Source: Bacteroidota bacterium
GTDB taxonomy: Bacteria; Bacteroidota; Bacteroidia; CAIKAF01
DNA: 64,000 bases
Direction: 5' to 3'
NCBI GenBank assembly: GCA_016866335.1
Contig: VGMT01000001.1
Span: 1-64,000 of the forward strand
The position numbers and the translations under genes are program-made. Each line of letters begins with the position of its first letter. Within the stretch, counting starts at the first letter, position 1. Of this stretch, positions 3,090 to 55,928 are shown piece after piece. The notes beneath the pieces are model-generated. The model was not told the DNA's origin, did no database searches, and saw only the letters and a list, made by a program, of their open reading frames with translations.

Positions 3090-3242
3090 GCGGTAGGGAT
3101 TGAGCCGGGTAGCGCGCAAAGGGCGAAGTGCGGGGTTCCGCGTGCTGCGGAGGCGACTTCAGGAGCCACCGCAAAGCCGCTGGACCCCCCACTGAGCCCT
3201 GCGTACTACCGGTGAAAGCCCGCAACCGCCCCCCCAAAAAAA
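3090..3242 (+). repeat. Dispersed structured intergenic repeat, copy 1 (orientation A)
   Basis: GCGGTAGGGATTGAGCCGGGTAGC...GGAGGCGACTTCAGGAGCCACCGCAAAGCCGCTGG...ACTACCGGTGAAAGCCCGCAACCGCCC followed by an A-run; shares core with six other copies. Confidence 0.92.
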
Positions 3243-6342: not shown

Positions 6343-6492
6343 GGGCGGCAAACGGGCTTTCGCGGGTTGTCCGCGGGTGCCGTAAGGCGGGCCCAGCGGG
6401 CTTGCGGTGGCTCCTAAAGTCGCCTCCGCGCCGCGCGGGCCCGGCTACGGCACCCTTGCGGGCAACCCTGCTCAATCCCTGCCGCGGGCGGC
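6343..6492 (-). repeat. Dispersed structured intergenic repeat, copy 2 (orientation A on - strand)
   Basis: Reverse complement GCGGCAGGGATTGAGCAGGGTTGCCC...GGAGGCGACTTTAGGAGCCACCGC...GGACAACCCGCGAAAGCCCGTTTGCCGCCC. Confidence 0.92.
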
Positions 6493-16992: not shown

Positions 16993-17132
16993 GGGCGGCA
17001 GCCGGGCTTTCACCGGTAGTCCTCAGCAAAAGGGGCTGGGGCAGCGGTCTTGCGTTGGCTCCCAAGGTCGCCTCCGCGCCACGCGCCCCAGGCCCTTTCG
17101 CTATGCGGGCTACCGCGTTCAATCCCTGCCGC
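16993..17132 (-). repeat. Dispersed structured intergenic repeat, copy 3 (orientation A on - strand)
   Basis: Reverse complement GCGGCAGGGATTGAACGCGGTAGCCC...GGAGGCGACCTTGGGAGCCAACGC...GGACTACCGGTGAAAGCCCGGCTGCCGCCC. Confidence 0.92.
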
Positions 17133-29288: not shown

Positions 29289-29437
29289 GCGGGCGGGATT
29301 GAACTAGGTAGCTGACCCTATGGAAAGCCTAGGGCCCGCGTGCTGTGCAGGCGACTTTAGGAGCCCGCGCAAAGCCGCTGGGCCCTTGGCTTTTTGAGGG
29401 GCACTACCTGTGAAAGCCCGAGAGCCCGCCCAAAAAA
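29289..29437 (+). repeat. Dispersed structured intergenic repeat, copy 4 (orientation A)
   Basis: GCGGGCGGGATTGAACTAGGTAGC...GCAGGCGACTTTAGGAGCCCGCGCAAAGCCGCTGG...CACTACCTGTGAAAGCCCGAGAGCCCGCCCAAAAAA. Confidence 0.93.
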
Positions 29438-34800: not shown

Positions 34801-37302
34801 TTAATCGTTTCTGTGTCTGCGTTTTTTTGATGGGAAGAGTCGTCTGCTTAAACCCGCCCAACTCATCGGATTGTTTCGAGCCCTTCGTTTGCGGATTTCC
34901 TCCTCGTTATCGTCGCTGGTATAGCCATATCCATACCCATATCCATATCCATATCCGTACCCATAACCGTACCCATATCCATAGGCATAACCGTATCCAT
35001 AACCGTACCCGTACCCACTGCCTTTTTTACGGAAGGGAGGTAAGCCGTTTATCACATAGCTTATTTTTTGAATTTGGTTGGTATCGTGAAGACGTTCGAG
35101 GTTATTGATAAAGAACTTTCTTGAATACGAGGCCCTGAACACATAGATAGGATAATCGGCTCTTCGCAGTACAAAAACGCCGTCGGTAACAATACCAACG
35201 GGAGGGTTATCAACAACGATGTAATCGTAGGTTTTTTGAAGTTCATCCAGCATTTCATCCATCCGATGTCCCATAATCAATTCAGATGGGTTTGGAGGAA
35301 TAGGGCCGGCTGTGATGTAATCCAGGTTATCGATTTCAGAGGTTTGAACGCAATCTTCAAAAGTGTCTCGTCCAATTAAAATGGTGCTAAGTCCCTTTTT
35401 ATTAGGAGAATTGAATCCGAGGTGGATTTTAGGCTTTCGCATATCGCCGTCAATAACCACGACTTTTTTACCTGCCAAAGCTAGAATTCCCGCAATATTT
35501 AAGGCAATAAACGTTTTTCCCTCGCCTGAAATGGTACTGGTAACCGCTATTAATTTGCTTCCGGGGTCCGAATTGATAAAATCGAGGTTGGCCCGAATAT
35601 TTCGAAAGGCTTCGGCAATAGTGGATTTGGGTTTTTTATCTACAATCAACTGAGAAATAGGAAGGCCAATTTTATATTGAAAAACAATTCCAAGGAAAGG
35701 CACGGAGGTATGTTTGCCAACATCGGCAATGGATAAAATTTGATTAAAGAGCAAATACCGAACAACCACAATTAAAAAACTGATAACGAACCAACCCACA
35801 AAGCTGCCGCCAACCACCAATTTTTTGTTTGGAGAAACGGGAGTGTCGTTAGGACGGCTGTAGCGTAAAAGACGGTAATCGGGGGCGTAGCCTTCTCTAG
35901 CCAAAGAAAATTCAGCTTTTTGTTGAATAAGTTCGTCGTAATATTTCTCATTCACCTCGTAAACCCGTTCGAGCCTAGCCAATTCAATTTGATCGGCAAT
36001 GCTTTTTTCGATGAATAATTTGCTTTCAAGGTCTTTGATGCGTTGTTGGGCCTCCTTGACTTTAAAATCAAGACTTTCGACTTGGTATTCAACTGCCTTG
36101 GCCATTCTGCCGCGAATAACATCAATATGAAAATCAAGCCTTTTGATTTGATTGCTGGATTCTTGAAAATTATACTGCATTAACTCACGTTGCAGCAGCA
36201 TATTTTGAATTTGTTGCACCAATGAGGCGACTCCTGGGCTATTTTGTACCTGGCTGGCAAGAATAATGGATTCACCTACAGGGATATTTTTATCGAGAAT
36301 TTTTTGGTAAACGGTACGGGTAACTTGTAGGGTTATCAAAAGTTCTTGAACCTGCTTTTCCAGTTCAAGAAGTTTGCCGAAATCGCCGGCGGTACTGAGC
36401 TCGGATGTTGGCCCATCTAAGCCATACTTTTTTTGGTAGGATTTTAGACTTGAGTCGGCCTCTTCCAATTTGTCTTTAACCAAGCCAAGAGTTTCATCGA
36501 TGTAGGTTAGCATTTTGTTGGCGCTTTCCTGTTTTGAATCGATGTAAAAGCTTTCATAGGCCATGGCTACCGCATTTACCATATCAGAAGCTCTGAAGGA
36601 GTTTACGTCGGTGTAGGCAATTTTAATGGTTTTAGCTTCTTCATTTTCAATTTCGATTTCAAGTCCTGGAAGGTACTTTCCGTTTATGGATTCAGGATCA
36701 TTAACTATGAAATAATGAAAATGGTTGGTTTCGTAATAAAAATCTGGGGCACGCCAAACTACCGACAATTCAAAATACCCAAACTTTTTGGTGGTATTTA
36801 AAGGAATGGTTGAAGACTCCTTGGTTTCATCGATTTCAAAACGGACGGTGCAGGTTCTGTCTTCATTAAAGTCAACGTGAATAGGAACACCATAAGTTAA
36901 GGGGTTGACTTTGTCAACTTTAATAAAATAGGGTGCTTTGTTGTAGTTGTCGGACGACATTATGGCTCCTTTCCGATAATAGGTGATGGAAAGGGGCAAG
37001 GTGTCAATAACGCGCTGCAAGAAAACAGGAGATCGAAGCAACTCAAGTTCTCTGGCAAGGTTTAAATCGAAAAAATTTCCTTGGTTTAAATAATCCTTTT
37101 TTTCTTCATCGGCCTTGGTAAGCTGAATAACGCTAAAGGTCTCAAATGTTGGAGTTGTGTATCTTAAAAAAAGGAAAGCGGAAGCGGCGGCAATGACACC
37201 CAAAAGCAAAATAATCCACAAAGACCTTCTGAAAATCATGCCCAGCAATGCTGGGTCTAGGTCTTGATTAATTGCAGTTACGGGCCGACGCTCTTCGCTC
37301 AT
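34801..37302 (-). CDS. Wzc-like polysaccharide biosynthesis tyrosine autokinase with Gly-Tyr repeat tail
   Basis: Wzz domain, PNKK motif, VTSTISGEGKTFIALNIAGILALAGKKVVVIDGDMRKP; C-terminal tract with 16 Tyr in (G/A)-Y repeats. Confidence 0.94.
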   Translation of the reverse strand: MSEERRPVTAINQDLDPALLGMIFRRSLWIILLLGVIAAASAFLFLRYTTPTFETFSVIQLTKADEEKKDYLNQGNFFDLNLARELELLRSPVFLQRVIDTLPLSITYYRKGAIMSSDNYNKAPYFIKVDKVNPLTYGVPIHVDFNEDRTCTVRFEIDETKESSTIPLNTTKKFGYFELSVVWRAPDFYYETNHFHYFIVNDPESINGKYLPGLEIEIENEEAKTIKIAYTDVNSFRASDMVNAVAMAYESFYIDSKQESANKMLTYIDETLGLVKDKLEEADSSLKSYQKKYGLDGPTSELSTAGDFGKLLELEKQVQELLITLQVTRTVYQKILDKNIPVGESIILASQVQNSPGVASLVQQIQNMLLQRELMQYNFQESSNQIKRLDFHIDVIRGRMAKAVEYQVESLDFKVKEAQQRIKDLESKLFIEKSIADQIELARLERVYEVNEKYYDELIQQKAEFSLAREGYAPDYRLLRYSRPNDTPVSPNKKLVVGGSFVGWFVISFLIVVVRYLLFNQILSIADVGKHTSVPFLGIVFQYKIGLPISQLIVDKKPKSTIAEAFRNIRANLDFINSDPGSKLIAVTSTISGEGKTFIALNIAGILALAGKKVVVIDGDMRKPKIHLGFNSPNKKGLSTILIGRDTFEDCVQTSEIDNLDYITAGPIPPNPSELIMGHRMDEMLDELQKTYDYIVVDNPPVGIVTDGVFVLRRADYPIYVFRASYSRKFFINNLERLHDTNQIQKISYVINGLPPFRKKGSGYGYGYGYGYAYGYGYGYGYGYGYGYGYGYGYTSDDNEEEIRKRRARNNPMSWAGLSRRLFPSKKRRHRND
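34921..35018. repeat. Hexanucleotide in-frame repeat encoding (GY)n in Wzc tail
   Basis: atatcc/ataccc/gtaccc-type 6-bp units, about 16 copies. Confidence 0.9.
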
Positions 37303-42935: not shown

Positions 42936-43088
42936 GCGGGCGGGATTGAACCAGGTTGCCCGCAAGGCCAAAAGCCAAAGGGCCCGCGAGCTGCGCAGGC
43001 GACTTCAGGAGCCCGCGCAAAGCCGCTGGGGCCTAGGCTTTTGGCCGCGGACTACCGGTGAAAGCCCGAAACCCGCCCAACAAAAAAA
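42936..43088 (+). repeat. Dispersed structured intergenic repeat, copy 5 (orientation A)
   Basis: GCGGGCGGGATTGAACCAGGTTGCCC...GCAGGCGACTTCAGGAGCCCGCGCAAAGCCGCTGG...GGACTACCGGTGAAAGCCCGAAACCCGCCC followed by A-run. Confidence 0.93.
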
Positions 43089-43153
43089 CCATTCCAACCC
43101 TTATACCTTAAATTTAAAAGGCGGAACTCCTTGACGGATTGATTCAACCTGCG

Positions 43154-43161
43154 TATTTTTG
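43154..43161 (+). promoter_or_regulatory. Bacteroidota-type -7 box upstream of DUF4199 gene
   Basis: TATTTTTG about 23 bp before likely ATG. Confidence 0.4.
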
Positions 43162-43184
43162 ATGCCTTGGACTTCGGAAATGCC

Positions 43185-46171: not shown

Positions 46172-46245
46172 GGTCCGGTAGTTCAGTTGGTTAGAATACA
46201 TGCCTGTCACGCATGGGGTCGCGGGTTCGAGTCCCGTCCGGACCG
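46172..46245 (+). tRNA. tRNA-Asp (GTC)
   Basis: GGTCCGG...CCGGACC acceptor stem; anticodon arm CATGC-CTGTCAC-GCATG; GGTTCGAGTCC T-arm; CCA not encoded. Confidence 0.97.
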
Positions 46246-46287: not shown

Positions 46288-46437
46288 GGGCGGGTGCGGG
46301 CTTTCAGAGCTAGTCCGCCGTCTGCAGTCCCGGTTGCAGCGGGCTCAGGGTAGCTCCCAAGGTCGCTCCCTGCTCCACGCGCAACCCGGCCAGCATCCGT
46401 TTCGGGCTAGCCTCTTCAATCCCTCCCGCGGGCGGCT
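46288..46437 (-). repeat. Dispersed structured intergenic repeat, copy 6 (divergent; orientation A on - strand)
   Basis: Reverse complement GCGGGAGGGATTGAAGAGGCTAGCCC...CAGGGAGCGACCTTGGGAGCTACCCTG...GGACTAGCTCTGAAAGCCCGCACCCGCCC. Confidence 0.88.
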
Positions 46438-55709: not shown

Positions 55710-55894
55710 TGATATGGATAAATGCCATACTCAAATTGAAATGGCAAATATTGGCCTTGTTCCTCTATGTGTTCTCATTCGGCCTTTTAGTCTCCGCTCA
55801 AACAGAAGACAACTTTAATCCCCGAAGCAGTTGGCGCGAGGAAGGCAAGGCGACCCCGGGAGCCACTGCCTGCCCGCTGCCAACAGCCTGTTGA
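55709..55894 (+). pseudogene. 5' fragment of a secreted-protein gene interrupted by repeat copy 7
   Basis: TAATG overlap with TonB receptor stop; MIWINAILKLKWQILALFLYVFSFGLLVSAQTEDNFNP signal peptide then translation runs into the repeat and stops. Confidence 0.5.
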
Positions 55895-55928
55895 CTGCGG
55901 ACTATAACGGAAAGCCCGTAACCCGCCC
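55822..55928 (+). repeat. Dispersed structured intergenic repeat, copy 7 (5'-truncated, orientation A)
   Basis: Retains AGGCAAGGCGACCCCGGGAGCCACTGCCT core and GGACTATAACGGAAAGCCCGTAACCCGCCC 3' arm; lacks the GGGATTGAAC 5' arm. Confidence 0.8.

Follow-up and report, generated by a model that had tools for sequence, protein, structure and literature searches.

The hairpin at positions 42936-43078 (+) of the window (the whole 64-kb stretch of DNA that was analysed, from the 2.45-Mb genome, G000, of an uncultured freshwater flavobacterium) is one of many copies of a quasi-palindromic element of 142-143 nt that folds into a single long rod-like hairpin. With slightly better than even confidence, we read this element as a dispersed, long-resident DNA hairpin repeat, an elongated (~142 nt) member of the Flavo-1 superfamily carried by one uncultured Flavobacteriales genus. 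The copy itself, 143 nt long, is matched at 150.9 bits by R1, a covariance model built from 34 copies of the hairpin element; its minimum free energy as RNA is −85.7 kcal/mol (z −5.9), folding as DNA gives a z of −6.0, and none of 200 shuffles folds as well. The long hairpin that a first-pass annotation had proposed here is thereby borne out.

The element consists of two conserved modules, one at the base and one at the apex, joined by arms that are nearly free in sequence but strictly Watson-Crick. In the copy at 42936, the basal motif GGG-A-TT-GA occupies the left strand at 42942-42949 (+), facing 43060-43067, and is invariant in 34/34 aligned copies; its two central base pairs covary in relatives (TT/AA, TG/CA, CA/TG). 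On its right strand the basal module reads GGACTACCGGTGAAAGCCCG (43049-43068, +); this stretch contains invariant columns and is common to Flavo-1 relatives. At the apex, GGC-GA-C[TTCA]G-GA-GCC (42998-43013, +), conserved GA/GA mismatches flank a loop whose four bases interchange among TTTA, TTCA, CTTG and GCGA. The invariant parts of the 34-copy alignment are the basal GGGATTGA / GAAAGCCCG and the apical GA..GGAG, and the 5′ foot reads GGCCY-GCGG in most copies. In diverged subfamilies even the basal helix is altered (GCGCCCCCGATTGA ... TGAAAGCGGG..GGCGCCC), with GATTGA / TGAAAGC and the apex retained. An A-rich tract lies directly 3′ of the hairpin (43079-43088, +), as it does at most copies; on the opposite strand a T-tract adjoins most of them. 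Group IIC introns insert behind intrinsic terminators; insertion of this kind was considered for the element and rejected as a general rule, a terminator-like hairpin being present in only 22 of 84 cases against 9.9 expected from shuffles.

The window holds seven copies, as the annotation had counted: six full R1 matches and a 5′-truncated seventh (about 55821-55928, +; weak R1 match at 55830-55884), in which the arms, the apex and the 3′ basal strand are left and which bears the GTTGGC/GCCAAC and AGGCA/TGCCT helices ascribed to it. Besides the copy at 42936, the full copies lie at 3090-3231 (+), with orthologous copies in the relatives G001 and G003; at 6343-6485 (−) and 29289-29431 (+), each with orthologous copies in G001, G003 and G004; at 16993-17132 (−), present in G001 and absent from the syntenic site in G003 and G004; and at 46288-46429 (−), a member of a distinct subfamily that sits just past the terminator of a tRNA (46172-46245) and has orthologs with compensated arms in G001, G003 and G004. 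The G000 genome gave at least 150 R1 matches, all full-length. A directly read sample of 847 kb contained 87 non-overlapping matches, weak scores included, most of them full-length, or about 1 per 10 kb, a density from which at least 200 copies are probably present genome-wide. The copies lie between genes, with convergent neighbours over-represented in G000 (22/76 vs 13%, from crude gene calls), and their orientation relative to GC skew is weakly and non-significantly biased (52 vs 35). Viral contigs searched for phage carriage of the element gave no match. The copy at 42936 is placed between divergent genes, upstream of a rightward promoter. A Bacteroidota-type promoter (TTGAC ... TATTTTTG) lies downstream of the element at 43130-43175. 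G001 retains it in front of a different gene, a hexapeptide-repeat, carbonic-anhydrase-like gene being directly next. Elsewhere in the window, at 34910-35029, eight 12-base units stand in register (TAxCCATAxCCA type) and probably represent a short-period repeat within a coding stretch.

Among bacterial RNA families known from prediction, Flavo-1 (RF01705) is one of the more abundant, and we know of no function for it. The connection to this family, which the first-pass annotation did not see, runs via intermediates. Two loci outside the genus, L066 from the same family and L285 from another, are each matched by R1 and by RF01705 over identical coordinates. Their RF01705 scores (32 bits, E about 5e-4) lie below the Rfam gathering cut-off of 42 bits, and in their alignment to the model the helices and loops of the base follow one another in the same order. 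The basal module with its GAUuGA / GaAAGC loops is present both in the window copies and in these RF01705-aligned intermediates. The two models do not meet directly: Rfam at its cut-offs has no match in the window, its copies included, the RF01705 model has none in the G000 copies of locus L157, RF01705 matches number 0 in G000, G001 and G003, and an R1 search of Flavo-1 loci gave no match. Across Bacteroidia, RF01705 matches 76 of 198 genomes, often in many copies. The element of the window is thus related to Flavo-1, from which it has diverged and beyond which it is elongated, but by the Rfam criterion it is a non-member.

Compensatory change keeps the long hairpin intact, as had been claimed from the repeat copies. 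Standard pairs fill 93.1% of the cells of the 34-copy alignment; shuffled alignments reach 77.6%, and sliding the partners gives 33-49%. Two-sided changes occur in 30 of 50 pairs, and the covariation score is 0.39 vs 0.11 in shuffles, with none of 500 shuffles matching any of these measures, although the copies counted are paralogs and not independent. Most of the covariation is carried by the variable arms, helices 3 and 4, and compensation is also found in place between species (below).

A single RNA strand under selection for its fold would tolerate G·U and would not tolerate A·C. When all mismatches were penalised equally, the arms of 110 elements contained 56 G·T and 99 A·C (25 and 40, respectively, among isolated mismatches) beside 3115 Watson-Crick pairs; an excess of G·T over A·C first suggested by the 34-copy table vanished on this larger set. 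G·T makes up 1.8% of arm pairs vs 8% in tRNAs of the same genome (nine tRNAs, for which ARAGORN counts standard pairs only), and in the arms of 30 genomic Flavo-1 loci a single isolated G·T compares with 715 Watson-Crick matches. Among two-sided changes, GC<->CG swaps are about as frequent as GC<->AT. The rarity of G·T, its lack of excess over A·C and the balance of GC<->CG and GC<->AT changes argue against an ordinary single-stranded RNA and for a DNA hairpin, a cruciform or a fold formed by both strands; together with the missing promoter motif (below) and the siting of the 42936 copy between divergent genes, they favour folded DNA, or a fold that both strands need, without proving either. 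The depletion of G·T would also follow if RNA from each strand had to fold, or if selection maximised stability. The conserved loops, which are strand-specific purine motifs and tetraloops, count against the DNA reading; loops of such kinds are common in RNA.

If each copy were instead transcribed as a structured noncoding RNA whose fold binds a protein, the strong covariation, the conserved tandem-GA loops and the interchange of apical tetraloops would be accounted for, and Flavo-1 has itself been listed as probably RNA and not cis-regulatory (Weinberg et al., 2010, PMC2864571) and is filed by Rfam as "Gene; sRNA". Against this stand the pairing counts and the absence of any promoter motif upstream of the element copies, on which account a promoter of the element's own was rejected. 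In the Flavobacterium psychrophilum transcriptome, moreover, Flavo-1 matches lie indistinctly sense or antisense to transcribed regions, with many outside them (PMC9723704), an indifference to transcription that fits the DNA reading. With G·T depleted, no promoter signal and this published indifference, plain RNA is disfavoured, and we consider the noncoding RNA explanation unlikely.

How the copies evolve in place was followed at syntenic sites in G001, G003 and G004, whose coding DNA is ~73-82% identical to that of the window. The copies at 3090, 6343, 29289 and 46288 are common to relatives at least as far as G003, those at 16993 and 42936 have a counterpart in G001 only, and the elements can be aligned across species where the flanks mostly cannot. 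At the site of the 42936 copy, G003 and G004 lack the element, and their intergenic DNA there is unalignable, so that the exact empty site was not seen. In the close pair G003/G004, 16/16 labelled sites still carry the element, and one-sided changes prevail (17 vs 1 two-sided); between G000 and G001 copies are kept at most sites, and two-sided changes build up over longer divergence (38 two-sided vs 50 one-sided for G000/G001, 41 vs 60 for G000/G003). The G003 ortholog of copy 46288 retains the marks of its subfamily, and its arms are changed yet still paired. Reciprocal-best ortholog pairs, from a non-random sample of loci fetched via strong matches, hold 47 two-sided vs 59 one-sided changes, which indicates that compensation in place is real.

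Exchange between copies is superimposed on this compensation. In 8 of 16 G000/G001 pairs, a paralog resembles the G000 copy more closely than the ortholog does. The copy at 42936 is among these, with 88% identity to a paralog and 73% to its ortholog, and entire arms can be replaced with base and apex unchanged. Some of the covariation thus comes from blocks replaced by paralogs, or possibly from arm-to-arm templating, neither of which needs stepwise compensation; because copies swap sequence blockwise, the covariation counts overstate the number of independent events. The annotation's suggestion that selection acts on a fold of RNA or of single-stranded DNA therefore stands only in part: the fold is maintained, also in place, but ordinary RNA is disfavoured and block replacement explains a share of the signal. 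In one orthologous copy (L227:1897-2038 in G003, L237:2546-2687 in G004) the changes cluster, nearly all of them in the left arm, which may reflect templating or conversion; other G003/G004 copies differ by 0-3 bases.

Such exchange could in principle be the main explanation, template switching between the arms and ectopic conversion keeping them complementary with no function in the cell. The affinity of half the G000/G001 copies to paralogs and the rewriting of entire arms suit this mainly mutational origin, as do the inner arms of Flavo-1, which are near-perfect palindromes of unrelated sequence. We nevertheless regard it as quite improbable, for the conserved mismatched loops escape correction and copies persist full-length at orthologous sites despite unalignable flanks.

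Least probable among the alternatives, and very doubtful, is a REP/REPIN-like non-autonomous element moved by a Y1 tyrosine transposase (RAYT / TnpA_REP): high copy number, a quasi-palindromic form, some inverted pairs at fixed spacing, sites filled in one species and empty in another, and a few Y1 genes of G002, G005 and G008 with a copy or short form nearby would suit it, but Y1 genes (RAYT, PF01797) are absent from G000 and G001, Flavo-1 is within reach at only 1 of 20 Y1 loci examined in 16 Flavo-1-rich genomes, and copies stay put over long times. The 5′ foot does not carry a GTAG/GTGG tetranucleotide, and the 142 nt of the element compare with 21-65 nt for REP sequences (PMC6006769). Target-site duplication was rejected, flank-to-flank repeats being equal to those of permuted pairs (5.35 vs 5.31). 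The eight close pairs listed, among which one pair may be recorded more than once through overlap or orthology, are all head-to-head, with spacers of 54-64 or 87 nt, and only about 3 occur in the G000 sample of 87 elements. With no Y1 gene, no GTAG foot, no target duplication and stable sites, the element is not a canonical REP. Within the same genus, short repeats form tandem arrays beside Y1 genes in G005 (L087, 748-1395) and G002 (L097, 1004-1426); they are unrelated to the element and may be a separate REP-type system.

Under the preferred reading, a long-resident DNA hairpin repeat, the working form would be folded DNA, either a strand that becomes single-stranded during replication or repair or a cruciform. 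A putative protein would recognise the purine mismatches of both modules, with the arms acting as a rod that sets the length between them; our search found no protein partner of the hairpin. Presumably a small hairpin element once gave rise to the family by spreading, and today the copies would be mostly inherited with the chromosome, its fold kept by selection on the hairpin, arm-to-arm templating and conversion between copies. A broader proposal, which we offer tentatively and hold to be possible rather than probable, is that the whole Flavo-1 superfamily is a phylum-wide folded-DNA element: a two-module hairpin of Watson-Crick pairs only, selected at fixed sites, read by a dedicated putative protein and homogenised among hundreds of copies. 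If the DNA reading is right, many Flavo-1 sRNA annotations of genomes would be misleading, and covariation in dispersed repeats would have to be weighed against conversion between copies. In the long form, comparing G·T with A·C in covarying arms provides a simple discriminator, and it points to DNA over RNA; the long form also offers many more pairs for such testing.

Among known systems, Flavo-1 is the nearest: it shares with the element the base (3 bp, then A·G, 2 covarying bp, GA/GA and ...AGCCC / GGACT...GAAAGC), variable and perfectly paired inner arms, and a dispersed distribution, often at high copy number, in Bacteroidota. Flavo-1 is ~76 nt long with a single variable inner hairpin, whereas the element reaches 142 nt and differs further in its second conserved module at the apex and its GC-rich arms. 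REP, REPIN and BIME sequences resemble it as many dispersed extragenic palindromes, some in inverted pairs, the head-to-head pairs being its one possibly REPIN-like trait; unlike them, the element has neither the GTAG foot nor a RAYT in its own genome, exceeds their usual upper length more than twofold, keeps stable positions and carries conserved loops in two modules. The MITE-like enterobacterial repeats RU-1 and RU-2 (127 and 168 bp), as far as the accessible part of their description goes, are similar in size and in their many intergenic sites; compared with them, the element showed no target duplication or transposon-like ends and forms a single rod-like hairpin with covarying arms.
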